Under the pieces are notes generated by a model that made no database searches, was not told the origin of the DNA, and worked only from the letters and a program-made list of their open reading frames with translations. The translations under genes were made by a program, and so were the position numbers. This document shows positions 2,510 to 25,255 of a DNA stretch of 29,140 bases, one piece after another. Position 1 is the first letter of the stretch, and each line of letters opens with the position of its first letter. This DNA comes from a virus. The DNA is taken from positions 1-29,140 of IMG/VR virus record IMGVR_UViG_3300025131_000290; one strand, written 5' to 3'.

Positions 2510-3757
2510 TTATAACCTATCTTGAATTGATTGTAACTCACCCAAATTCGCTCCTGCTTTGGCTTTTGTTAAATGACCATTTCTCTCTAATATTTTCTTT
2601 ATTTCTTTCAAAGTATCTACTCCGTCTGAATTATTGTAATCTATTGTGAAACTATCATAGCCATATAACACTAATTTTGTTTTCTTCTCATATAAATATC
2701 GTTGTAGTTCAATTATCGTCTTTATATTACATTCTGTTTCATATGCCTGTAATAGATAATTCAGTAATTTACTACGATTCATATCTGTATAGTTTTTCTT
2801 TATAAGTTTCCTCTTATAAATATCAGTTTCTATGAAATTATCTCTATTATATTTACTCCATAATTCATTTGTATATTCTTTTGTTTTTTTGAAAAATGGT
2901 ATTGATTTTGCTATATCATCTGGTATTCCGCCATATAAAATCTTGAATGTTATCTGTTTTGATTCTTCATATGTACAACCATAGAAACTTGATAAATATT
3001 CGTGTACAGATGCTTGTGGGAATTTATATCCAATTAAACTACCGATAAGTCTAACGTGGTATGCGTCGTAATCAAATTCTACGAGATAGTCATTTTCTGG
3101 TATGAACACCTTCCGTTGTTCTTTTGTTAGGGCTGCGAAGTTTACTGAACCGAATGAGTTACTTGGTCGTCCTGTTGATGTCCATAGATTGTATTTTGTG
3201 TATAATTTTCCTTCTGATATGTGTTTTCTCACTCTCTCATCAAATATATCACATACATCATCTGATACACATATACCATTCTTTTCTATTGAGTAGAATG
3301 CTGATGATACTTCTCTTGCGTATTGTTGTTCTTCTAAATTCATAGTAACCGACATCTTATCACATAGTTCATCACAATATTCTATGTGTTTAACCATCGG
3401 TATGATTTCGTTTAATCGTTTTGCGTTGTAATATTTGTTATGGAAGAACTCGTAGGCATTGTTTCTAACTACACTATCGTCAAATGGTTTATTGTTTAAT
3501 GACCACCATTCGTAATTCATATCTAATACATTCTTAAATGGATATACAGATAGTAGTGTTTTCATATCAGGTGTGTATATTAGTTCCGAATCTAACCATC
3601 TATAATCTTCTAATGATTGACCACAATCTGGATGATAATTACATATCATTTGACTATCTTCATCTATTTTCTTTACATATAACATAGACAATCCATTATT
3701 CTTGTGTAATGGATGTAGATATGGGTCTGAAAATATAGGTATTACAATATAACTCAT
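2510..3757 (-). CDS. Short family-A DNA polymerase-like protein (PolA palm/fingers)
   Basis: This 415-residue protein carries the polymerase motifs of DNA polymerase I. TGRPSNSFGSVNFAAL starts at residue 195. Motif A is LVEFDYDAYHVRLIGSLIG, with catalytic Asp229. Motif B is SKQITFKILYGG (Lys267, Phe271, Tyr275). NYLLQ (Asn333, Gln337) equals the Asn845/Gln849 pair of E. coli Pol I. Motif C is VLYGYDSFTIDY with Asp368. The Glu after motif A is His234, the motif C HDE is YDS, and the motif B Arg is not seen. There is no clear 3'-5' exonuclease; the first ~150 residues may be a remnant. It lies in the baseplate operon with only a distant AAGG before its ATG, so low expression is expected. Confidence 0.8.
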   Translation of the reverse strand: MSYIVIPIFSDPYLHPLHKNNGLSMLYVKKIDEDSQMICNYHPDCGQSLEDYRWLDSELIYTPDMKTLLSVYPFKNVLDMNYEWWSLNNKPFDDSVVRNNAYEFFHNKYYNAKRLNEIIPMVKHIEYCDELCDKMSVTMNLEEQQYAREVSSAFYSIEKNGICVSDDVCDIFDERVRKHISEGKLYTKYNLWTSTGRPSNSFGSVNFAALTKEQRKVFIPENDYLVEFDYDAYHVRLIGSLIGYKFPQASVHEYLSSFYGCTYEESKQITFKILYGGIPDDIAKSIPFFKKTKEYTNELWSKYNRDNFIETDIYKRKLIKKNYTDMNRSKLLNYLLQAYETECNIKTIIELQRYLYEKKTKLVLYGYDSFTIDYNNSDGVDTLKEIKKILERNGHLTKAKAGANLGELQSIQDRL

Positions 3758-9441: not shown

Positions 9442-11433
9442 TTATGCATGCTGTGCATTACTTGTTATGTTTCTCGCTACCGCTGAACCTATCTTGTTCG
9501 GTACTGTACCAGTAGTTCCGAAATAACTATCCATCCGGTTCTCTAAATTTTTGATAGCTTTTACAATATCATTTGTGTGCAGGATAGTTTCTGCTCCGTG
9601 TTGTCCTTGGCCGTGAGCCATTGCAGCGCTACCAGCTGTTGGTGTAGCTTGCTGTCCGGGTGCTAAAGTTTGAAATGTTGGAAGTGCTCTAACTGCTAAC
9701 CAAGCACCTGCTACTGTAGCGAGGGCAATTCCAATACCTAGACCCATACTCGCTGCTCCTGCAGTCATTACAGTTGCAGCTGCTGAAGCTAATGCTACTC
9801 CCATTGATGCTATTTTGAGTGTAACTAATACTGGAAGTAATTGATTTACTGCTGATTTAATATTATCGAAGAAGGGTCCTATATTATTTATAGCTTGTCC
9901 AATTTTTTCCCAAGTTGAAAGTTGTCCTTCAGTAGCAGGTGTAAAAACGTCAGTAAAGAATGCAGTTATTTTTTCACCAAATGCTGTAAATTTTTCAGAT
10001 AATACTTCTGTCAAATCACCACTGTCACCAACCCAATCGCTCATAATTATAGCTACTTTATTAAAAGTAGGTCCTAATGTATTCATAATAGCTGCACCCA
10101 ATTGTTTAAATTTATTCATCATCCGTGATATTCCAGATATTGCATCTTGTCCAACAAGATTTTCAAACTCACCCGATGCTAATGCTCCTGATACAGATAA
10201 GTCTTTTGTTCCTTTAACAAACTTAGCTAATTCAGATGTTGATACACCAATTGATTTAGCTAACGCCTCTCGTTGTATAACATTCATACTATTAAATTCT
10301 TCTTCACTTCCAAGCTGTGATATAACTTCTTCCATAGCACCTGATATATCATTATTCAATGCCAATTCACGAGCTTTTTGGAAATTTAATTGTCTTCCAA
10401 TCAACATTGAAGCTTCTATCTCTGCAGATAGTGAACTTTGGAAATCTAATAATCCTTTTGCTACTTTAGCTGTTGTGTCTAAACTGACACCTAATTGTCT
10501 TGCCTGTACAGCTGCTTCTGCTATATTTTCACCAGATGCATCTGTGAAATCTGCTATCGTTTCTGATGACGCTGCTATGTCTTTCATTACTGCCGAAGGT
10601 GCTACACCTCGTTGTTTAGCTAACTGAAATGTAGATTCTGCTAAATGTTCTGCTTGTTCATTTGATAATCCAGCAATTGATTTTAATGAACCAAATAATC
10701 TTGTAGATTCATCAACAGACATTCCTGTAGCTTTGGCTGTATCAAGTACAGTAGCTGATAATGCTGCTGCTTCACCAGTTGAAATTCCAAATTCAGAAGA
10801 TAATGTTTGAACAGTAGAAACAACATCTTCAAGACCTAATCCAATTCCAATAGCAGAAAATTCAGCATCCGTGAGATTTTTAACAAACTTATCATCTGCT
10901 GCCATAACACCAAATGTTTTTCCGATATCGTCAATTTTAGCGGCAAAACCTGTTGCTATTTTCCATAGACCCGTGAATATTGTTACAAACAATGCTCCTT
11001 GAAGTATCTGTTTTTTAAAAGCATCTTTTGCTTTAGTTTGTAACTCTGTAACTTTCGCCTGAAGTTTTGCTCTTCGAATTTGACTTTTTAATTGTTTTTG
11101 TTCAATTCTTAAATCTCTATTTATTAAACTACTTATTTTTATGTGACCTTTCAACATCTGTTTTCTATTAAACGATATACTTTTGGTTAACTTACTCCGT
11201 TTTTCCGTAAGTTTATTAATATCGTTTCCAATTTTTGCATTTGAGGCTAAAGATTTAGCAAGATCCTTAGTTTCTGCTAATGTTCTGTTACCCAACTCTG
11301 CTTGTTTCGATAGAGAGTCAATTATCTTATTTAAATTTCTACCCTCTTTCTCTAAAGCTTTTCCTCTATCTTGTACAGACTGAGTTATTTCTTTTTGTAT
11401 AGCTCTTATTTCTTTGATATCTTCTTTAGCCAT
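9442..11433 (-). CDS. 29: Tail tape measure protein (gp29-equivalent)
   Basis: This 663-residue protein is predicted to set tail length and occupy the tube. Residues 1-140 are charged coiled coil. A hydrophobic segment (FVTIFTGLWKIATGFAAKI) follows near residue 155, then an Ala/Ser-rich helical region typical of phage tape measures (STGEAAALSATVLDTAKATG, VDESTRLFGSLKSIAGLSNE, ERGV-type repeats). A strongly hydrophobic stretch around residues 560-610 contains ASMGVALASAAATVMTAGAA and MGLGIGIALATVAGAWLAV, likely membrane-interacting. T4 gp29 has 590 residues for a tail of about 100 nm, so a similar tail length is expected. The ATG has AGGAA upstream. It follows the gp26/gp51-like chaperones, the usual order. 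Confidence 0.88.
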   Translation of the reverse strand: MAKEDIKEIRAIQKEITQSVQDRGKALEKEGRNLNKIIDSLSKQAELGNRTLAETKDLAKSLASNAKIGNDINKLTEKRSKLTKSISFNRKQMLKGHIKISSLINRDLRIEQKQLKSQIRRAKLQAKVTELQTKAKDAFKKQILQGALFVTIFTGLWKIATGFAAKIDDIGKTFGVMAADDKFVKNLTDAEFSAIGIGLGLEDVVSTVQTLSSEFGISTGEAAALSATVLDTAKATGMSVDESTRLFGSLKSIAGLSNEQAEHLAESTFQLAKQRGVAPSAVMKDIAASSETIADFTDASGENIAEAAVQARQLGVSLDTTAKVAKGLLDFQSSLSAEIEASMLIGRQLNFQKARELALNNDISGAMEEVISQLGSEEEFNSMNVIQREALAKSIGVSTSELAKFVKGTKDLSVSGALASGEFENLVGQDAISGISRMMNKFKQLGAAIMNTLGPTFNKVAIIMSDWVGDSGDLTEVLSEKFTAFGEKITAFFTDVFTPATEGQLSTWEKIGQAINNIGPFFDNIKSAVNQLLPVLVTLKIASMGVALASAAATVMTAGAASMGLGIGIALATVAGAWLAVRALPTFQTLAPGQQATPTAGSAAMAHGQGQHGAETILHTNDIVKAIKNLENRMDSYFGTTGTVPNKIGSAVARNITSNAQHA

Positions 11434-11447
11434 TTTAGTTTCCTATT

Positions 11448-11690
11448 TTAAAAAAAATCACTTAATTTAAATCTTTCAAGTTCAACATCAACTCCATGAT
11501 CTCGCTTTAAAGCTTTTTCAAGTCCACCTACTGTTCTGTTTAGTAAGGCTAGACCTAACTTAATTTTTCTACTTTTTTTAATTTTATCTTTATCAGTTGA
11601 CTTTAAATTTTTTGCATATTTAAATATTTTATCAAAAAATCCTTCTGATAAAACATTTTCGTTATTCATATATGATTTCTTTTTGGGCAT
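11448..11690 (-). CDS. Unknown small basic protein before the tape measure
   Basis: The 80-residue protein is lysine-rich, with the elements VLSEGFFDKIFKYAKNL, a basic linker, and KLGLALLNRTVGGLEKALKR ending in RFKLSDFF. It is probably helical. The ATG has GGAG upstream and a promoter-like motif 33 bases away. It lies between the chaperone pair and the tape measure, so an assembly or tape-measure-associated role is possible. The family is not recognised with certainty. Confidence 0.65.
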   Translation of the reverse strand: MPKKKSYMNNENVLSEGFFDKIFKYAKNLKSTDKDKIKKSRKIKLGLALLNRTVGGLEKALKRDHGVDVELERFKLSDFF

Positions 11691-11718
11691 ATTATATTCT
11701 CCATAAGATGTAATTCAT

Positions 11719-11733
11719 CATATATAAATATCA
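11719..11733 (-). promoter_or_regulatory. Promoter-like motif upstream of the 80-residue gene
   Basis: The coding strand reads TGATATTTATATATGATG; TATAAATA lies on the other strand at 11723-11730. The start codon is 33 bases downstream. It would drive the tape-measure and baseplate genes. Confidence 0.6.
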
Positions 11734-11746
11734 AGAATGTAAAAAA

Positions 11747-11980
11747 TTATTGTTTGAATCTTTGTTGAAATGTAGATATTGGGTCTGATTTTTGTTGTGC
11801 TTTTTCTATCTGTTTATTTTCTTCAGTTTTGTAATCAACTAATTTTTGAAGATAGAATCGTCTTAAATAAACAGGCATAGCATATACATCAGAATGTGTA
11901 AATCCATTTCCGTGATATACTAAATTAAATATTTCTTCGTGAATTTGTGGTCTATGCTGAGGTGTCAGGCCAAAAAAAGT
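11747..11980 (-). CDS. 51: gp51-like chaperone extension, probably made by +1/-2 ribosomal frameshift
   Basis: This open frame begins just after a TAA at 11981-11983 and overlaps the end of the gp26-like gene. It has no start codon near its beginning. It encodes FGLTPQHRPQIHEEIFNLVY, then HGNGFTHSDVYAMPVYLRRF, YLQKLVDYKTEEN and a polar tail ending QRFKQ. The GFT.SDVY.MP..LR.FY theme is that of short gp51-like hub-assembly proteins found between gp26 and the tape measure in marine T4-like phages. Entry would be at C-TTT-TTT-TGG, by slipping +1 or -2; the -1 frame hits TGA after two codons. An alternative is a sequencing error in the T7 run. Either way the coding potential is real. Confidence 0.7.
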   Translation of the reverse strand, partial: TFFGLTPQHRPQIHEEIFNLVYHGNGFTHSDVYAMPVYLRRFYLQKLVDYKTEENKQIEKAQQKSDPISTFQQRFKQ

Positions 11981-12704
11981 TTATGGTTAAAGGTATATCT
12001 ACCTCGACCATGTCACCTCCTATTTCTATTTCTTGTTTAAGTTCAATATCAGGTGATACTTCGCTGATTTTATGTCTTAAAAACAATGAATCTCGTGACA
12101 ACATATTTTGAACAAGATTTCCTATTTTATTTATGTCAGTTTCACCATCAAATGAAACTATTGAATATTTCAATCGTGTAGTTAAATCTTTTGAAACTTG
12201 TGAATCCATCTTTTTCATTGATTTTACTTCAGTTTCAATAATTTTCTCATCAACACCAGTTAACATTTTAACCTTTATTTTGGCCTTCGATACAGGGAGT
12301 TCAACCTCAAATTCATTTGTGTTGATGTCTGTAGATATTTTTTTGAATGGACATTCAGCAAGATTGAATGTGTATTGAATTTTTTCACCTGTATCTGGAT
12401 TTTCAACTTCAGCTGGATATTCTGGTCCATATGCTAAAATACGAGCCGCTACCATAACAGCATTCTTATCACCTAATATCAAATCATCAACATTAACTCC
12501 CTCTGTGAGAATAAGTGAATTTAAAAGTCTATCTATCACCACTCCCTTCTTTATAAGATTCTGTGATGTGAGAATATCTTCTTCTTTCGCCGTCATATAT
12601 TTTATTTCTATTTTTCCTGATGACAATGGACTATCTTTATGATATACTTTACCCTCACTTGGTAAATCAATTACTTCACTTGGAAATTTTTGTTTATCTG
12701 CCAT
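11952..12704 (-). CDS. 26: Tail/baseplate-hub assembly chaperone, gp26-like
   Basis: The 250-residue protein starts FPSEVIDLPSEGKVYHKDSP and has KIEIKYMTAKEEDILTSQNL, then DRLLNSLIL, the pattern of T4-type gp26-like proteins encoded just before the tape measure in marine phages. These are non-virion assembly factors related in role to tail-tape chaperones. The ATG has GGAGGT at ideal spacing, inside the end of the lysozyme gene. Frame 0 ends with NFFWPDTSA. Seven T (11972-11978) lie 18 bases before the stop, where a change of frame would enter the 75-codon open frame described next. The short form is then the normal product and a fusion the minor one. Confidence 0.75.
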   Translation of the reverse strand: MADKQKFPSEVIDLPSEGKVYHKDSPLSSGKIEIKYMTAKEEDILTSQNLIKKGVVIDRLLNSLILTEGVNVDDLILGDKNAVMVAARILAYGPEYPAEVENPDTGEKIQYTFNLAECPFKKISTDINTNEFEVELPVSKAKIKVKMLTGVDEKIIETEVKSMKKMDSQVSKDLTTRLKYSIVSFDGETDINKIGNLVQNMLSRDSLFLRHKISEVSPDIELKQEIEIGGDMVEVDIPLTINFFWPDTSA

Positions 12705-12705
12705 T

Positions 12706-13176
12706 TTATACCTCCATACTTCGTCTAAACCAACCGAAGTAAAATCTGTCTTGTTCTGGTTTCTTTGTTACTAAATCTGAATAGTACTTAACTCTATAAG
12801 CTCTTACTCTTTCTACTTCAACACCTTTCATGGCCTTTACAGTTGCTGGACCCATTCCTCCATCTACATCTATATCTCTACCTTTGTTGTTAGCTGCTCG
12901 TTGTAGAATCTTAACGGCTGTTCCTCTACCCATATTTACACACATATCAAAGAAAATATGCCATAAGTTTTCTGGAAGTGATTCAACGCGATTCTTATCC
13001 CAATAATCTCGTTTATATATATCTTTAGCTTGTTCTCGTGTCAGATTCTTTATATCGACATCAGGGTAGAATCGCTTTGTGATACCATAATTGGTTTCAC
13101 CGCCCAAATCACTTGGGTCATTAACATAACCACCTTCGTGTTCTAGAACCTTTTCTATTATTTCATTGAAATTCAT
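12706..13176 (-). CDS. GH108-type lysozyme (N-acetylmuramidase)
   Basis: This 156-residue enzyme is predicted to cleave the glycan chain of peptidoglycan. The N-terminal catalytic motif EHEGGYVNDPSDLGGETNYG (Glu14 as the family's catalytic residue, then GGY) defines glycoside hydrolase family 108. DGGMGPATVKAM near residue 120 belongs to the companion peptidoglycan-binding/helical C-terminal domain. There is no signal peptide. Start: ATG at 13176, with AAGG upstream; an ATG 14 codons earlier is too close to the promoter-like motif. It starts the tail-assembly operon, and its end holds the GGAGGT ribosome site of the next gene. It may be the endolysin or a tail-linked lysozyme standing in for T4 gp5. 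Confidence 0.88.
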   Translation of the reverse strand: MNFNEIIEKVLEHEGGYVNDPSDLGGETNYGITKRFYPDVDIKNLTREQAKDIYKRDYWDKNRVESLPENLWHIFFDMCVNMGRGTAVKILQRAANNKGRDIDVDGGMGPATVKAMKGVEVERVRAYRVKYYSDLVTKKPEQDRFYFGWFRRSMEV

Positions 13177-13220
13177 ATTATTGATAACCTTCTTATTTTT
13201 GAATAACCTACATAACATTT

Positions 13221-13235
13221 CATATATAAATATAT
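13221..13235 (-). promoter_or_regulatory. Promoter-like motif upstream of lysozyme gene
   Basis: The coding strand reads ATATATTTATATATGAAA; TATAAATA lies on the other strand at 13225-13232. It is 49 bases from the preferred lysozyme start at 13176 but only 7 from the longer alternative, which supports the shorter start. Confidence 0.6.
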
Positions 13236-13297: not shown

Positions 13298-13786
13298 TTA
13301 GAATTGTAATACAGCGTAGTCATATCGTAATGTAAGAGTAATCTCAGCCGGATCACTTGCGGCAAAGTCAAAATCACCAAAAGTAGCATCTTGAATCCAA
13401 CATCCTTTAAGTGTCCATTCTTCAACAACATCACCAACTGGACCAAGTACATTAAATGTCACTTCTTTCTTATAGAAATCAGAATATCCATCACGGCCTG
13501 TTACTGATTCGTGTGATAATCTAACCCATTCCATAGCTGCTTGAGCTGCTGAAGGAACAATTGGGTCATACATTGTAACTTGTAATGCTTGCCATTTACC
13601 CTTACCTTTAACATATCGTGTCACATTCATATGTTCTAACTCTACCTCATCAAATGTAATTTGAGGTCTTCCGGCCGTCTTAATCATATATGCTGGAATG
13701 CCTTCTATGTTCATTATAAACCGATTCTTTAACTTCGGTTCAAATGGTGTAAACATTATATCTTGTGGTGTTAACATCTCTGCCAT
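13298..13786 (-). CDS. 19: Tail tube protein, gp19-like
   Basis: The product is 162 residues from the ATG at 13786, chosen because AGGAG lies 8 bases upstream; an in-frame ATG 11 codons earlier overlaps the promoter-like motif and lacks a site. T4 gp19 is of about the same length (163). Typical elements are NRFIMNIEGIPAYMIKTAGR near the N-terminus, HMNVTRYVKGKGKWQALQVT, the MYDP turn, and the C-terminal beta strands LKGCWIQDATFGDFDFAASD then ITLTLRYDYAVL. It forms the hexameric rings of the inner tail tube. Terminators on both sides and one promoter-like motif make it a single-gene unit, consistent with a need for many copies. Confidence 0.9.
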   Translation of the reverse strand: MAEMLTPQDIMFTPFEPKLKNRFIMNIEGIPAYMIKTAGRPQITFDEVELEHMNVTRYVKGKGKWQALQVTMYDPIVPSAAQAAMEWVRLSHESVTGRDGYSDFYKKEVTFNVLGPVGDVVEEWTLKGCWIQDATFGDFDFAASDPAEITLTLRYDYAVLQF

Positions 13787-13816
13787 TATACTTCTCCTAA
13801 AAAGATTATCTAATTT

Positions 13817-13831
13817 CATATATAAATATCA
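13817..13831 (-). promoter_or_regulatory. Promoter-like motif upstream of the tube gene
   Basis: The coding strand reads TGATATTTATATATGAAA; TATAAATA lies on the other strand at 13821-13828. It is 35 bases upstream of the preferred start and directly follows a terminator. Confidence 0.6.
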
Positions 13832-13902: not shown

Positions 13903-16149
13903 TTATTCTGGAAATGTAGCTCCAGTTGGTTGAACTGTGAAATCAAGAACGATGAACTCTGCTGTTCTTGTGGGTTGAACAAATATCTGCCCATATAAGA
14001 CATTTCTATCTACAACATCTGGAGTGTTATTTGATTCATCCATTACAACGCGGAATGCATTTAAGCCTGAGTTAGATTGAACTTGTTCCAAGAACGGATT
14101 TACAATATTCAAGAATCTTCGTCTTGTACTTGCATTGTTTTGTTCAAATACAAGGAATCTTGAACTTGATGCGATAAATTTCTTCACCTTAATCAACAAT
14201 CGTCTTACATTCACCCTGTCGAGAGCTGAAGATTTCTTTTGAAGTGTCTTTTGACCCCAAACAGTAACACCAGAGGTAGGAAATGTTGCAATTGGATTGA
14301 CATTTGAATCATACAAGGTATCTCTATTTGAATGACTTAATTTACGTTCAGCTTGAACTACACTATCCAATGTTCCTCTATTCAGACCGGCTGGAGCAAA
14401 CCACTCATGAGCTACTTTGTCGTTAAACGCATACATTCCAGCAACTACAACTGATGGTGGTACCCATCGATTTCTTCCTAAATCAGCATCTGATATCTGA
14501 ACCCAGGGCCAGTAAGTAGCTGCGTAGTTAGAATCTCTTGTTTTAGCTTCTGTTGTTGCTGTTGTGAGTGCTGCTGAATATAAAGTTGGATCAGATATAA
14601 CAAAACAATCACCTCTGTCTTCGCACATATCTATTGCTTTTGTTATAATAGAACTACCACCTGTTTGATTATCTATAACTCCAGGTAATAATACAAGATT
14701 TATATCATATTCATCTTGATTTCCTAAAATATTAATTGCATCTTCATATTCTGTAGCACTAGTCAGAATAAGACCTTGTGAATTAGAATCAGTTATAGAA
14801 TCATAAAAATTCTTCGGATGTTGAACTGTTCCATCAGAACCACCACTAAATGAACCACCAAATGAACCACTATTTGAACCGCTATGGAATAATGGTAATG
14901 AAGCAGAAGCTACATTGACTCTAATATTACCATTTTCATCAAGATAATCTACAGTTTGTTCTATAACTTCAACTCTTACATATTTTGATTTGTTTGGATA
15001 ATCACCAGCTAGTGAAAGATATGGATCTGTTCCACCAGAATCGTTAAGTGTCCAAACTTGGTCACCGATTACTTTAGAGATATAATTAGTTGAATTTTCA
15101 TCTAAAGTAAGGTTGTTCCAAGTTTCAAGAGTTTGTTTTCTTTTAGAACTATCATCACCTCGTCTGAGAAGGAGTGTAAATGTTCCTTTCTTTTGATTAA
15201 GACTTCCTATTTCCCATCTTAAATTATCTTTTGAACCTGATTCTAATACATTATTTGTTCCTATTGGACCAACACTATTTAATATCTCTCCATCTGATAA
15301 TGTATGTAATTTAAAAGATTCTTTAAATGTATCAGTATTAAAATCATGACCACCCCCTAAACTTTTAGATGTCATAGATCCTGAATGTCCAGCTATTTCT
15401 ACAAAATTACCAACTGCTTGTGAACCACCGAACACAGGTGCTGGTGTAACACCTTGAGTTGGACTTGTATAAACACCAAAATTTCCAGCTATACTTGATG
15501 TAAGTCCAACTACATTAACATCTGAACTAGCACTTATTGGTAAATTATGTAACGAACTACTGATATTAATGGCGTTTTTTAAATTTAAAGCGGCGTTAGT
15601 CAATGCAGCTGCACCAACACCAGAACCAGAATCTACATATATTAAAGTTGCTGAATCTGTTAATAGACCACTCCTATTAATGGAACCTGTAAATACAAAT
15701 TTAACTTCACTACCACCAGTTGGTGTAAATGAAGCAGATCCATGAGAACCAATAAAGGAAGCTGATAATATTGGACCAGCTATAGTCAAACTTGCAGTAT
15801 GTTTATTTCCACCACCTACAATTGCTGGATCTACTGATGATGAAATTGTAGCAGATGCTCCACCATAACTACCATCAAGTATTCTAACAACAGTCAATTT
15901 TGAACCATGTTTCAAATATTCTCTTGCTGTATGTGATGTAAAATATTGATAATAATCACTTCCACTCTTGAAAGTATCACCAAATCTTGCTTGAAACTCT
16001 GAATATGATGTAACTACTGTCGGTATTCCAGCTGGACCCTTTACTGTTGGTCCTATTAACGCAGCTCCTATTTCACCAATTGCTGATGGTAAAAATGTCT
16101 GGTCTATTTCATTCGTAAATACACCAGGACTTATAATCTTTTCTGCCAT
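13903..16149 (-). CDS. 18: Contractile tail sheath protein, gp18-like, copy B with extra domain
   Basis: This 748-residue paralogue of the preceding sheath has the same N-terminus (EKIISPGVFTNEIDQTFLP) and a nearly identical C-terminal core (NRWVPPSVVVAGMYAFND through FTVQPTGATFPE). It differs by an inserted segment at about residues 105-275, rich in Ser, Gly, Ala and Val, with the theme LTNAALNLKNAINISSS and VVGLTSSIAGNFGVY, which resembles small beta domains repeated in marine phage tail proteins. The insertion lies where sheath proteins carry their outward-facing domain, so copy B may display a decoration on the tail surface. The ATG has CGGAGA upstream. It has no promoter-like motif of its own and depends on read-through from copy A. 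Confidence 0.92.
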   Translation of the reverse strand: MAEKIISPGVFTNEIDQTFLPSAIGEIGAALIGPTVKGPAGIPTVVTSYSEFQARFGDTFKSGSDYYQYFTSHTAREYLKHGSKLTVVRILDGSYGGASATISSSVDPAIVGGGNKHTASLTIAGPILSASFIGSHGSASFTPTGGSEVKFVFTGSINRSGLLTDSATLIYVDSGSGVGAAALTNAALNLKNAINISSSLHNLPISASSDVNVVGLTSSIAGNFGVYTSPTQGVTPAPVFGGSQAVGNFVEIAGHSGSMTSKSLGGGHDFNTDTFKESFKLHTLSDGEILNSVGPIGTNNVLESGSKDNLRWEIGSLNQKKGTFTLLLRRGDDSSKRKQTLETWNNLTLDENSTNYISKVIGDQVWTLNDSGGTDPYLSLAGDYPNKSKYVRVEVIEQTVDYLDENGNIRVNVASASLPLFHSGSNSGSFGGSFSGGSDGTVQHPKNFYDSITDSNSQGLILTSATEYEDAINILGNQDEYDINLVLLPGVIDNQTGGSSIITKAIDMCEDRGDCFVISDPTLYSAALTTATTEAKTRDSNYAATYWPWVQISDADLGRNRWVPPSVVVAGMYAFNDKVAHEWFAPAGLNRGTLDSVVQAERKLSHSNRDTLYDSNVNPIATFPTSGVTVWGQKTLQKKSSALDRVNVRRLLIKVKKFIASSSRFLVFEQNNASTRRRFLNIVNPFLEQVQSNSGLNAFRVVMDESNNTPDVVDRNVLYGQIFVQPTRTAEFIVLDFTVQPTGATFPE
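16001..16085. repeat. 85-bp exact direct repeat, copy in sheath B
   Basis: Identical base for base to 17915-17999, including third codon positions. It encodes the N-terminal part of the sheath (around TVKGPAGIPTVVTSY). Similarity continues with few mismatches to the start codons. Confidence 0.9.
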
Positions 16150-16169
16150 TATGTTTCTCCGATTAATAA

Positions 16170-16191
16170 GAGGGTCAAATTAATGACCCTC
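16170..16191 (-). other. Hairpin between the two sheath genes
   Basis: A perfect 8-bp stem GAGGGTCA/TGACCCTC has a 6-base loop. On the transcribed (minus) strand it is followed by TTATTAATC, not a T-run, and then at once by the Shine-Dalgarno site of the second sheath gene. No promoter-like motif lies here. It is therefore more likely a weak attenuator or RNA-processing element than a full terminator. Confidence 0.6.
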
Positions 16192-16206
16192 GTTATTTAT
16201 TTTATG

Positions 16207-18069
16207 TTACTCTGGAAATGTAGCTCCAGTTGGTTGAACTGTGAAATCTAAAACAATAAATTCTGCAGTTCTTGTAGGTTGAACAAATATCTGTCCGTAT
16301 AATACATTTCTATCTACAACATCTGGAGTATTATTTGTTTCATCCATAACGACACGGAATGCATTTAATCCTGAGTTGGCTTGAACTTGTTCTAAGAACG
16401 GATTAACGATATTCAAGAATCTTCGTCTTGTAGCCGCATTGTTTTGTTCGAATACAAGGAATCTTGAAGATGATGCAATAAACTTCTTAACTTTGATTAA
16501 CAACCTTCGTACATTAATCCTATCAAGTGCTGATGCTTTCTTCTGTAAAGTCTTTTGACCCCATACAGTAACACCTTGTCCTGGGAATGTTGCAATTGGA
16601 TTAACATTTGAATCATACAATGTATCTCTATTTGAATGTGTTAATTTTCGTTCAGCTTGAATGGCCATATCAATTCCACCACGATTTAAACCAGCTGGTG
16701 CGAACCATGGATGTGCAACTTTATCGTTGAATGCATAAACTCCAGCTAACACAACTGATGGTGGTACCCATCTATTTGTTCCTAAGTCAGCGTCTGCTAT
16801 TTGAATCCAGGGATAATACATAGCTGAATAATTTGAATCACGAGCTTCGGCCTTAGCTGTTGCTGTTGTGAGTGCTTGACCATAAAGACCTGGGTCGGCA
16901 ACAACAAAACAATCACCTCTGTCTTCACACATATCTATTGCTTTTGTTATAAGTGCAGAACCGGCACCTGACGAATCATCTGTTACACCGGGCATCAGAA
17001 CTAAATTAATATCATATTCATCTTGATTTCCTAAAATATTAATTGCATCTTCGTAAGCAGTTTGACCATCAGTAGCTGCGTCTAAATCAAATCCTTGTAC
17101 ATTGGACGATTCTATGTTATCATAGAATACTGCTTGAGGAGAAGCGCCACTATCTCCAACAAAATTACCAAGTGCATCAAATCCTGCGTGTCCTACTGAA
17201 CCACCTGTAAATGAACCGCTATTAATACTAGGAAGTGAAGCAGAAGCTGCGTTAACTCTAATATTTCCGTTCTCATCTAAATAATCTGCAGTTTGTTTTA
17301 GTATTTCAACCCTCACATATTTTGATTTGTTTGGATAATCACCAGTTAATGAAAGATATGGATCTGTTCCACCAGAATCATTAAGTGTCCAAACTTGATT
17401 TCCAATTATTTTTTCAATGTAATTACTTGAATTGGGATCAAGTGTTAGATTATTCCAAGTTTCTAATGTTGTTTTTCTTTTATGAGAATCATCACCTCGT
17501 CTAATAAGAAGTGTGAATGTTCCTTTATTTTGGTTAACGGTTGAAATTTCCCAACGAACATTATCTTTTGAACCAGAATTTGTTAAAATGTTATTTGTTC
17601 CAATACAACAACCTTCATATCCACCAGAACCAGTAGTATTATTCATCAATGCACCATCTGATAGAGTATGAAGTTTAAATGAACTCATAGCTGAATTAAA
17701 AAGTGTACCCGTAGTACTACCAGTATAATAATTTCCACTCCCTGTTGGAACAAATGAACTTGCTTTTGCGACAGATCCACCACCATTGGCTAATATCCTG
17801 ACGACAGTCATTTTACCTGCATATTTTAAATATTCTCTTGCTGTGTGTGATGTTAAATATTGATAATAACTTGAACCACTTTTGAATGTATCTCCGAATA
17901 ACGCTTGATATTCAGAATATGATGTAACTACTGTCGGTATTCCAGCTGGACCCTTTACTGTTGGTCCTATTAACGCAGCTCCTATTTCACCAATTGCTGC
18001 CGGTAAGAATGTCTGGTCTATTTCATTCGTAAATACACCAGGACTTATAATTTTTTCACTTGATGGCAT
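16207..18069 (-). CDS. 18: Contractile tail sheath protein, gp18-like, copy A
   Basis: This 620-residue sheath protein starts with EKIISPGVFTNEIDQTFLPA, the typical N-terminus of myovirus sheath proteins (GVF..EID), followed by GEIGAALIGPTVKGPAGIPT. The C-terminal half has the conserved sheath core: NRWVPPSVVLAGVYAFND, HPWFAPAGLNRG, VWGQKTLQKK, INVRRLLIKVKKFI and a final beta-rich arm. The middle (residues ~100-330) is variable. The ATG has TTGGAG upstream. The downstream gene is a paralogue, 128 residues longer, with very similar ends. It is probably the major sheath, or one of two, assembled around the gp19-like tube. Confidence 0.92.
   Translation of the reverse strand: MPSSEKIISPGVFTNEIDQTFLPAAIGEIGAALIGPTVKGPAGIPTVVTSYSEYQALFGDTFKSGSSYYQYLTSHTAREYLKYAGKMTVVRILANGGGSVAKASSFVPTGSGNYYTGSTTGTLFNSAMSSFKLHTLSDGALMNNTTGSGGYEGCCIGTNNILTNSGSKDNVRWEISTVNQNKGTFTLLIRRGDDSHKRKTTLETWNNLTLDPNSSNYIEKIIGNQVWTLNDSGGTDPYLSLTGDYPNKSKYVRVEILKQTADYLDENGNIRVNAASASLPSINSGSFTGGSVGHAGFDALGNFVGDSGASPQAVFYDNIESSNVQGFDLDAATDGQTAYEDAINILGNQDEYDINLVLMPGVTDDSSGAGSALITKAIDMCEDRGDCFVVADPGLYGQALTTATAKAEARDSNYSAMYYPWIQIADADLGTNRWVPPSVVLAGVYAFNDKVAHPWFAPAGLNRGGIDMAIQAERKLTHSNRDTLYDSNVNPIATFPGQGVTVWGQKTLQKKASALDRINVRRLLIKVKKFIASSSRFLVFEQNNAATRRRFLNIVNPFLEQVQANSGLNAFRVVMDETNNTPDVVDRNVLYGQIFVQPTRTAEFIVLDFTVQPTGATFPE
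17915..17999. repeat. 85-bp exact direct repeat, copy in sheath A
   Basis: Partner of the repeat at 16001-16085. The following ~50 bases towards the start codon also match, apart from a few substitutions. Confidence 0.9.
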
Positions 18070-18128: not shown

Positions 18129-18132
18129 TTTT

Positions 18133-18147
18133 CATATATAAATATAT
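18133..18147 (-). promoter_or_regulatory. Promoter-like motif upstream of the first sheath gene
   Basis: The coding strand reads CATATATTTATATATGAA, nearly palindromic; TATAAATA lies on the other strand at 18137-18144. The sheath start is 68 bases downstream, with a hairpin in between. Confidence 0.6.
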
Positions 18148-18462: not shown

Positions 18463-18490
18463 TTTATAACCTCTATTTTGTTGTTAATAT

Positions 18491-18505
18491 CGTATATAAA
18501 TATAT
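18491..18505 (-). promoter_or_regulatory. Promoter-like motif upstream of the 93-residue gene
   Basis: The coding strand reads ATATATTTATATACGATA; TATAAATA lies on the other strand at 18495-18502. The start codon is 33 bases downstream. It carries C instead of T within the ATG part of the consensus. Confidence 0.55.
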
Positions 18506-19922: not shown

Positions 19923-20389
19923 TATTTAGGTCTTTCTTCTATTTGTAATGATGATAACCTACTTCTATGTGCTTTAACAATTATACTATGTTTAAAGTTT
20001 TGATGACCAGCAATCAATTGTGGTTCTGTCACCGAGTTCATTTCAAAATAAATACCATTCCAATCAACAATATCACCAATTTCTGGATAAAAACTCGCTT
20101 CTGATAAAGTTGTTCTGTGGAAATACATCTCAATTGATGTATTTAAGTCTGGACCTAAGTCATTTACTTCTATTTCTGGTTCTATATAATTAATAAGACA
20201 ATTTACTCTAAACCCTTGGTCGTAATATTTAGTTGTAGATTCACCATACATATTTTCTTCGGTATTCTCTATTGTAATCTTATAGATATCTACTGTCTGT
20301 CCTATTATCTCATCAATTAGTTCTTCGTTAAACGCGTCGAACAAATTTATATCTTTCTGGGATGTAAAAAAAGGCTTATTAGTTGCCAT
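19922..20389 (-). CDS. 14: Neck protein, gp14-like
   Basis: This is a 155-residue protein between the gp13-like and gp15-like genes. The segment FYPEIGDIVDWNGIYFEMNS, then VTEPQLIAGHQNFKHSIIV, resembles the gp14 pattern of a beta-hairpin domain (in T4, EGDLIYFPM...LFEINWVEP...LGQ). T4 gp14 has 256 residues, so this is a shorter version of the neck completion protein. The start is an ATG with AAGGAG inside the end of the upstream endonuclease gene. The stop TAG overlaps the GTG start of a small basic gene. Confidence 0.6.
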   Translation of the reverse strand: MATNKPFFTSQKDINLFDAFNEELIDEIIGQTVDIYKITIENTEENMYGESTTKYYDQGFRVNCLINYIEPEIEVNDLGPDLNTSIEMYFHRTTLSEASFYPEIGDIVDWNGIYFEMNSVTEPQLIAGHQNFKHSIIVKAHRSRLSSLQIEERPK

Positions 20390-21062
20390 ATATCAACTCC
20401 TTACAATTATCAAAATGCCATCTTTTCATATTACTTATACTCCCAATTAATGTACAATGTGGACATTCAATTTTTCTCTTAGCTTTCTCACCAATTTTAA
20501 TCTTAGTTTCCATCGATTGATATTTACCATACATACCATTGTTATCACCCGTTCTATCTACTCCATACCAATGATGGTTTTCACCTGAATGATATGTAGT
20601 ATTATTATTATGACATTTACCTTCTTTCCACCGTTTCTTAACAGTATTACTGATACTATTCTTATACCCATCAGATTTTCTTCTACCAGATTGATAATCA
20701 CTCATTTTTTTCTTTGTTTCTGCTGATTTCGGTTTACTCATTCGTTTTTTAGTTATATTAGAACGAATATAATTTTCACCACCTAATGTCATATTATATC
20801 CACACCCATTATCAACAAAACTATTATTTTCTTTAATGTAATATTGCTCTTTTTCATTTAATTCATCAATATCTTTACATTCACAGATAACTTCCCATTT
20901 AAAGTTTTCTTGTCCGTATTTGTTAATAGCGTTGTGAAAATAATTATTAGAATTGTTCTTAGAGTTCCTCAAATGATTCAATTTTCTATCATTAAATTTA
21001 TTTATAGTCTGACCCACATAAGACTTGCCATTTACTTTATTTGTAGCTTTGTAAATTACCAT
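20379..21062 (-). CDS. GIY-YIG homing endonuclease with NUMOD3 motifs and C-terminal zinc finger
   Basis: The 227-residue protein has an N-terminal GIY-YIG nuclease domain: MVIYKATN, KSYVGQTINKFNDRK, a Glu in DELNEKEQYYI and the closing GYNMTLGGE. NUMOD3-like DNA-contact motifs follow (SKPKSAETKKKMS; DNNGMYGKYQSMETKIKIGE). The C-terminus IECPHCTLIGSISNMKRWHF then DNC gives a C-x2-C...H-x3-C zinc-finger pattern common in these enzymes. It sits between the gp13-like and gp14-like genes. It starts 5 bases after the former, and its last 11 bases overlap the start of the latter, whose Shine-Dalgarno site (AAGGAG) lies inside its coding region. This close fit suggests long co-adaptation rather than a recent insertion. 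Confidence 0.87.
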   Translation of the reverse strand: MVIYKATNKVNGKSYVGQTINKFNDRKLNHLRNSKNNSNNYFHNAINKYGQENFKWEVICECKDIDELNEKEQYYIKENNSFVDNGCGYNMTLGGENYIRSNITKKRMSKPKSAETKKKMSDYQSGRRKSDGYKNSISNTVKKRWKEGKCHNNNTTYHSGENHHWYGVDRTGDNNGMYGKYQSMETKIKIGEKAKRKIECPHCTLIGSISNMKRWHFDNCKELIYGN

Positions 21063-22242: not shown

Positions 22243-22270
22243 TTATTTCTCCAAATTGGGTATTCTTCTT

Positions 22271-22285
22271 CATATATAAATATAA
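22271..22285 (-). promoter_or_regulatory. Promoter-like motif upstream of neck gene
   Basis: The coding strand reads TTATATTTATATATGAAG; TATAAATA lies on the opposite strand at 22275-22282. The start codon is 33 bases downstream. It separates the fibre gene from the neck operon. Confidence 0.6.
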
Positions 22286-24656: not shown

Positions 24657-25220
24657 TTATTTGATTTTGATAAATTTACCAACATCATTCCTTTTCATAT
24701 TTCTTTCTGAAAGGGCTTTGCATCTTTTATTATATCTATCAGTTCCTTCTTCATCACCATATCTATCAATAAACCAATCTAATGAAAATCGACCTTTGGC
24801 TTTTTCTTTCATTTTTTTGATTGATTCTGGTTTTTGTTTTTTACCGTACATTCCGTTTTTTTTACCTTTAGTCATATTGGACATCTTTTCAACAAATACT
24901 TTATATTTATCTGAATCATATAAACCTTCCCACATATTTCCACCTGATTCTGTATTATAAGTATCATTATACCCAATTTTCACCGAATCGTATTTTTCAA
25001 TAAAAAATCTTTCTAATTCCGATGATTCTTCTTTTTTGACTTCCGCTATAATTTCTTTTTCAAAATTATCCCATCCATATTTTCTGATAGCTGAATGTAT
25101 TGTATAACTGCCATTATGTTCAGAAACATATTTATGTTCATTCATTCTACTATCAAAATCTCTCGCTCTTCCTATGTAACATTTTCCACTCGGACTTGTT
25201 AATTTATATATCACTTCCAT
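24657..25220 (-). CDS. GIY-YIG homing endonuclease with NUMOD3-like motif
   Basis: This 187-residue protein is a probable free-standing homing endonuclease. The N-terminal nuclease domain shows VIYKLT and KCYIGRARD (the GIY and YIG elements, with the catalytic Arg after YIG), a Glu in ELERFFIEKYDS, and GYNDTYNTESGG as the closing Asn motif. A DNA-contact motif of NUMOD3 type follows: KGKKNGMYGKKQKPESIKKM. Start: ATG at 25220, with GGAG upstream; an in-frame ATG 4 codons earlier overlaps that site. It lies between a capsid terminator and a weaker terminator and has its own promoter-like motif, so it is a single-gene unit inserted in the structural cluster. The recognition site is unknown; adjacent structural genes are the usual targets of such enzymes. 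Confidence 0.85.
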   Translation of the reverse strand: MEVIYKLTSPSGKCYIGRARDFDSRMNEHKYVSEHNGSYTIHSAIRKYGWDNFEKEIIAEVKKEESSELERFFIEKYDSVKIGYNDTYNTESGGNMWEGLYDSDKYKVFVEKMSNMTKGKKNGMYGKKQKPESIKKMKEKAKGRFSLDWFIDRYGDEEGTDRYNKRCKALSERNMKRNDVGKFIKIK

Positions 25221-25240
25221 AAAATTCTCCATAAAACTCT

Positions 25241-25255
25241 CATATATAAATATAG
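25241..25255 (-). promoter_or_regulatory. Promoter-like motif upstream of GIY-YIG gene
   Basis: The coding strand reads CTATATTTATATATGAGA; the reverse strand carries TATAAATA at 25245-25252. It is placed just after the capsid terminator and 25 bases before the endonuclease start. Confidence 0.6.

Follow-up and report, generated by a model that had tools for sequence, protein, structure and literature searches.

The putative chaperone locus and its neighbourhood

The stretch of marine phage DNA analysed (the window: IMG/VR virus record IMGVR_UViG_3300025131_000290, 29,140 nucleotides) has, between the genes for its tail tube and tape measure proteins, two overlapping ORFs, the second of which lacks a start of its own, as in G/GT-type chaperone pairs. 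All coordinates are in whole-window numbering and the features of the chaperone locus are on the minus strand.

9442..11433, minus: tape measure protein gene, downstream of the chaperone pair (phrog_28, tail length tape measure, E 5.9e-14)
11448..11690, minus: small 80-aa gene with its own ATG, between the pair and the tape measure gene (ORF listing)
11747..11974, minus: second ORF (T-domain extension) in its post-shift reading, TTT (11974) to TAA, 75 codons (translation of 11750-11974)
11747..12704, minus: predicted long form, 318 aa by a +1 shift, the short form up to the site plus the second ORF (predicted product)
11952..11954, minus: frame-0 stop TAG, 6 sense codons past the second TTT (sequence)
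11952..12704, minus: PF12322 frame-0 gene (short form), 250 aa (Pfam, phrog_150, AF2 model, PDB fold matches)
11972..11978, minus: slip site TTT TTT T (seven T's), in frame 0 AAC-TTT-TTT-TGG-CCT (sequence)
11981..11983, minus: TAA shutting the +1 frame just 5′ of the slip site (sequence)
12706-13218: endolysin gene, also within the interval between tube and tape measure genes
13298..13819, minus: tail tube gene, upstream of the chaperone pair (phrog_4542, tail tube, E 3.6e-31)

The 80-aa product has no match in Pfam or PHROG. On the minus strand the end of the frame-0 gene reads GAT ATA CCT TTA ACC ATA AAC TTT TTT TGG CCT GAC ACC TCA GCA TAG. The second frame, open from 11980 to the TAA at 11749-11747 (77 codons), can be entered only by a +1 or −2 shift. 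The −1 frame meets TGA three codons on, and the window's site, C_TTT_TTT, is not the X_XXY_YYZ of canonical −1 frameshifting. With ATG, GTG and TTG all allowed as starts, the ORF listing has no ORF of at least 60 aa in the second frame, and the TAA at 11981..11983, by closing the +1 frame, means that no upstream start can feed it. On all of this (the coordinates, the frame logic and the lack of a usable start) a preliminary description of the locus was accurate. Its figure of about 325 residues for the fused protein was too high, the computed length being 243 + 75 = 318 residues by +1 and 319 by −2. One IMG/VR contig, L008, is identical to the window over 6750 bp; it may not be an independent assembly.

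The short form matches Pfam PF12322 (T4_baseplate; the family of T4 gp26 and gp51) at E 4.2e-9, with 36.9 bits against a cut-off of 24.5, which bears out the family first suggested for it, and phrog_150 at E 4.8e-12. Its AF2 model (pLDDT 88) matches in fold viral proteins whose annotations name the baseplate hub or hub assembly, that of SP-15 being an example. Among the 612 chains of a PDB fold search the top two were YqbN (3klu, Z 5.7) and the HK97 tail assembly chaperone (2ob9, Z 5.1), the third row having Z 4.0 and the others at most 2.3. The modelled likeness to the HK97 chaperone is moderate and, with Z below 8, is support rather than proof. The short form is probably tail-assembly-chaperone-like, and its position between tube and tape measure genes is typical of such chaperones.

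The product of the second ORF is modelled by AF2 as a three-helix domain (pLDDT 84; helices 5-21, 27-32 and 35-62). Fold searches with this model gave no significant match and generic helical matches only. One of the proteins met, from RL38J1 (TM 0.64/0.80, E 2.2), may be the small gp51 of RL38J1, since it is uncharacterised and of about equal size. Searching PDB sequences with the short-form and second-ORF profiles yielded nothing useful, and hmmscan gave no direct match of window-type second ORFs to phrog_634 (baseplate hub assembly catalyst, the C-terminal part of gp51). Weak matches to DUF6760 were given by 8 of the 36 second-ORF members (best E 0.0012), a connection that is treated as a lead only. 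[A DUF6760 ORF also lies on the minus strand of L204, at 647-1194 of a Bacteroidota-phylum genome, G075, in a contractile-injection-system-like cluster of sheath, tube and a 123-aa CPxC protein. It follows the CPxC protein in the −1 frame with no start codon nearby, and the pair looks like the same short/long arrangement.]

Several other features of the window are recorded here. Most copies of a recurrent motif resembling TATTTATATATGA are a short way 5′ of minus-strand genes, and the motif is possibly a late promoter; matches with at most 3 mismatches number 15, against 5.9 expected. Its minus-strand occurrences include 11716-11730, 13218-13232, 13814-13828, 18130-18144, 18488-18502, 22268-22282 and 25238-25252. 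Two tandem tail sheath-like genes (748 and 620 aa) occupy 13903-18069; their DNA identity is about 80-82% in parts, and their main difference is an insert. Two free-standing GIY-YIG homing endonuclease-like genes, at 20379-21062 and 24657-25232, lie inside the structural gene cluster. Amid the tail genes, at 2510-3757, is a 415-aa gene with only a partial match to a DNA polymerase family (covering positions 957-1210 of the phrog_17 profile). The gene may be a fragment, or else a copy put to another use.

Conservation of the frame, the second ORF and the site

By tblastn, relatives were found among cultured phages (Flavobacterium immuto, Microcystis Mel-JY01, Streptococcus GXN1, Listeria LIS04 and Bacillus SP-15) and in large metagenomic phages, and profile scans added 80 viral loci, together with 12 found in assemblies of bacteria or archaea. 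Of the 103 loci holding both parts, 101 have their second ORF in the +1 frame. Sharing of the frame to this extent is far beyond chance, and points to programmed entry into the +1 frame shortly ahead of the tape measure gene, as had been proposed for the window. In the other two, L007 and L109, the second part is weak and lies in the −1 frame. [In L007 (LR756511.1, 3001-3900) the frame-0 C-terminus is longer and the second ORF starts near TAATGGATG; this may be an intermediate arrangement. In L045 an early stop truncates the short frame-0 gene before the site while the second ORF is intact, either through sequencing error or as a true mutant.] Annotations of many genomes of this group lack the second ORF or give it a wrong start, examples of absent or mis-started ones in public annotations of cultured phages being at 3739-3970 of L001 (MW353175.1), 3746-3982 of L002 (PP395634.1) and 1603-1695 of L200 (P-HM2).

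Between close relatives dN/dS of the second ORF is mostly 0.03-0.3, which indicates that purifying selection acts on it; the value for the window and L009, 0.74, is a point against. The preliminary description suggested looking in relatives for a separate start of the second frame, and the outcome favours the shift: no ATG is present in that frame upstream of the site in 88 of 100 loci, and in 61 of the 100 there is none either before the site or within the first 25 codons.

The site itself is near-invariant, with the consensus TTT-YTT-TGG/TAC-CC in 100 loci: 72 read TTTTTTTGGCCT, 13 TTTTTTTACCCT and 6 TTTCTTTGGCCT, and single variants among the remainder are TTTCTATTCCCT, TTTTTTAGTACC, TTTTTTCACGCC and TTCTTTCGTCCC. 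Its run of T's is T7 in most, TTTCTTT in 6 and TTTCTATTC in 1. Variation is mainly at base 4 and there is T or C only, the pattern to be expected of a TTT-to-TTY slip by tRNA-Phe. At codon 1, 99 of the 100 sites have TTT, a codon that makes up 714 of the 926 Phe codons elsewhere; TTC is never found at codon 2. The synonymous bias in Phe codons at the two positions has p values of 5e-5 and 7e-6 after clustering at 70% identity, and is weaker after clustering at 55% (0.019 and 0.0056). The frame-0 stop in relatives is mostly 6-8 codons 3′ of the first codon of the site.

Stimulatory elements were sought on both sides of the site. Downstream, no consensus RNA base pairs were found across loci, and single-sequence folding gave structures that are only mildly stable (mean z −0.83, mononucleotide shuffles). 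Upstream, a Shine Dalgarno-like element at the spacing found in prfB is absent in most loci. GGAG-type tetramers do occur, mostly 23-39 nt upstream of the site. As their spacing is variable and Gly-Glu codons explain them, they were dropped as candidate Shine Dalgarno-like stimulators. With no conserved structure and, in most loci, no suitably spaced Shine Dalgarno, the site would have to be slippery mainly by itself. To our knowledge T7 runs are not established as strong +1 sites.

A probable programmed +1 shift and its alternatives

Two tail-assembly chaperones are, with high probability, made from the single PF12322 gene by programmed +1 ribosomal frameshifting. On the model we infer, most ribosomes would complete the 250-aa short form, the equivalent of lambda gpG and T4 gp26. 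A minority would slip +1, with P-site tRNA-Phe re-pairing from TTT to the overlapping TTY, and go on to read TTT-GGC-CTG, so adding some 75 largely helical residues. The resulting long form of 318 aa would be the equivalent of lambda gpGT and T4 gp51. Were the two forms to act as in lambda, the tape measure protein would be coated by the short form, with the extension serving to recruit tube subunits.

Frameshifting in tail chaperone genes is known: it is −1 in lambda, −2 in Mu and very likely +1 in HSTV-2 (PMC5009743). To judge from its gene anatomy, the window system is very probably a +1 version of the lambda G/GT case. In common with lambda G/GT and P2 E/E′, it would make a short and a long chaperone from one gene, and it has a startless extension and a location between tube and tape measure genes. 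Those are −1 cases, however, and the window differs also in its protein family (PF12322), in having another slip site and in having no known stimulator. A +1 shift at TTT-CGC has been proposed for the tail chaperones of HF1-group haloviruses (PMC7230728), which, like HSTV-2 where +1 shifting is also proposed, are archaeal viruses. E. coli prfB (CUU-UGA) provides a further parallel, as a P-site +1 slip whose CUU-U tetramer is shared by the TTT-CTT-T variants. Unlike prfB, the sites here have no A-site stop codon and, in most loci, no Shine Dalgarno at the required spacing.

Since a −2 shift enters the same frame as +1, the preliminary description left the two open; variant sites in relatives partly separate them. 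With −2, as in phage Mu (PMC5009743), where the same functional gene pair has its +1 frame reached in this way, the ribosome would move two bases back on the T run, and the junction would have one extra Phe (NFFFGL, rather than the NFFGL of +1). On T7 the re-pairing of tRNA-Phe would be perfect, and the T7 members could use it. This does not extend to all members, however. In the six TTT-CTT-TGG loci −2 would require tRNA-Leu pairing with TTC, and in L003 (TTT-CTA-TTC) re-pairing would be even worse, whereas a +1 slip from TTT to TTC is a perfect match in both. L004 has TTC-TTT-CGT, which contains UUU-CGU, the +1 motif cited for influenza A virus, and resembles the halovirus TTT-CGC (PMC7230728). 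The −2 reading is accordingly an unlikely one, and the C-interrupted sites (TTTCTTT and the single run given above) favour a +1 slip of tRNA-Phe.

The same interrupted sites bear on transcriptional slippage, in which RNA polymerase would add or skip U's on T7 to give a mixed mRNA pool. The junction in most loci is indeed homopolymeric T7, but the interrupted runs occur as its functional equivalents, and slippage on T/A runs usually needs longer ones; we regard it as extremely improbable here. Homopolymers are also prone to sequencing error, and the T run might be suspected of it, or the second ORF of being a decayed pseudogene. Relatives refute this reading, which has next to no chance of being right: the same frame relation is present in 101 loci, the second ORF shows purifying selection, and the run whose retention the preliminary description suggested checking is kept, T7 or TTTCTTT recurring over 53 clusters below 70% identity, so that it is not a base-call error.

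Very improbable, too, is translation of the second ORF alone, from a non-AUG start or by re-initiation past the frame-0 stop, to give a small gp51-like protein. On paper at least, such a stand-alone form exists in cyanophages, where in most loci an ATG comes 5 nt past the first base of the frame-0 stop, and the second ORF of Mel-JY01 is annotated as a separate gene, which would begin at TTG. But the window has no ATG, GTG or TTG that would give 60 aa or more in this frame, most relatives have no ATG in the region surveyed above, and the invariance of the site and the conservation of FFGL upstream of any start would be left unexplained.

A −1 lineage and a proposed origin of T4 genes 26 and 51

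The +1 clade is not alone in having an extension ORF at this position. A single PF12322 gene with a small overlapping ORF, often annotated gp51 (phrog_634), is found in cyanophages, Vibrio ValKK3, Rhizobium phages, Pseudomonas Cygsa01 and Aeromonas phiAS5, and the junction is at the same FF codons as in the +1 clade. The difference is that all 90 loci have the small ORF in the −1 frame, and that the canonical heptamer T_TTT_TTC is at the frame-0 end in 87 of them. In IC12 (L112), phiAS5 (L114) and P-HM2 (L200; its gp51 is annotated as a 30-codon fragment) there is no ATG within 20 nt past the stop, and frameshifting is the natural reading there. The ATG located a few bases past the stop in most cyanophages makes re-initiation also possible in those.

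T4 has been named as the exception to G-T frameshifting (in a review, PMC5009743). Its gp26 and gp51 are listed as hub assembly chaperones, with gp51 being essential, of unknown function and absent from virions (PMC3004832), and a paper on P1 refers to proposed chaperone or cofactor roles of the two (PMC9024508). Both match PF12322 (gp26 8.8e-64, gp51 3.9e-52). T4 gp26 ends, with KEFFELL, at the FF motif where the window's short form reaches its site, whereas gp51 runs on beyond the motif with a 39-letter stretch that aligns with the window's second ORF. By sequence comparison gp26 and gp51 are paralogues, gp26 corresponding to the short form and gp51 to the complete long form; the difference from the window is that T4 has two separate genes and no frameshift. 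The earlier naming of the window's ORFs as gp26-like and gp51-like thus holds for the frame-0 gene. The second frame by itself is not gp51, matching only the C-terminal extension of gp51 and the stand-alone small gp51 of cyanophages.

Direct profile comparison of window-type second ORFs with the T4 gp51 C-terminus is weak, with a score of 20.8 when the best of 100 shuffles reached 20.1. By hhalign the second ORF matches cyanophage small gp51 at 94.8% (E 5e-8, score 40.8, shuffle maximum 17.2), and in turn profile comparison of cyanophage small gp51 with the T4 gp51 C-terminus gave 98% and E 2e-13. It is on this cyanophage bridge that the deduced homology of the second ORF to the T4 gp51 C-terminus rests.

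In the genomes searched, full-domain PF12322/phrog_150 is single-copy in all 6 of the +1 type and all 9 of the −1 type, and five T4-type Straboviridae have two copies apiece (second phrog_150 matches in several −1 genomes are to the small ORF, profile positions 214-281, and were not counted as full-domain). In a PF12322 tree all the +1 proteins are in one clade (100/99), and gp26 (99/98) and gp51 (100/100) are sisters at 97/93, together adjoining the −1 Straboviridae phages phiAS5 and ValKK3 (86/84). A second tree is similar, with long-branch warnings and with one divergent gp26 grouping with gp51. The tree is without a known root and does not give the age order of +1 and −1.

The simplest reading of the tree and copy numbers, and the most likely, is that a duplication inside the Straboviridae replaced frameshifting. 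T4-type Straboviridae would descend from frameshifting ancestors in which the gene was duplicated, one copy then keeping the short form only (gp26) and the other fixing the extension in frame (gp51). That the window would connect with T4's arrangement had been anticipated, and what emerges is richer than proposed, with another lineage using −1 at the same FF codons. In the open-access literature covered by the search, no earlier report of frameshifting in the gp26/gp51 family, or of the duplication idea, was found.

We think it likely that T4 is a descendant of tail-chaperone frameshifting and not an exception to it. On this view the shift at one and the same pair of Phe codons is +1 in the window's clade and −1 in cyanophages as well as some Straboviridae, and duplication has given each of the two products a gene of its own, 26 or 51, in T4-type Straboviridae. 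The long, GT-like chaperone would then be gp51 and the short, G-like one gp26, and with this splitting by duplication the family comparison offers a concrete, testable answer for T4. A junction that is conserved in the protein but produced by a +1 slip, by a −1 slip or through duplication would also provide a natural series for the evolution and loss of recoding.
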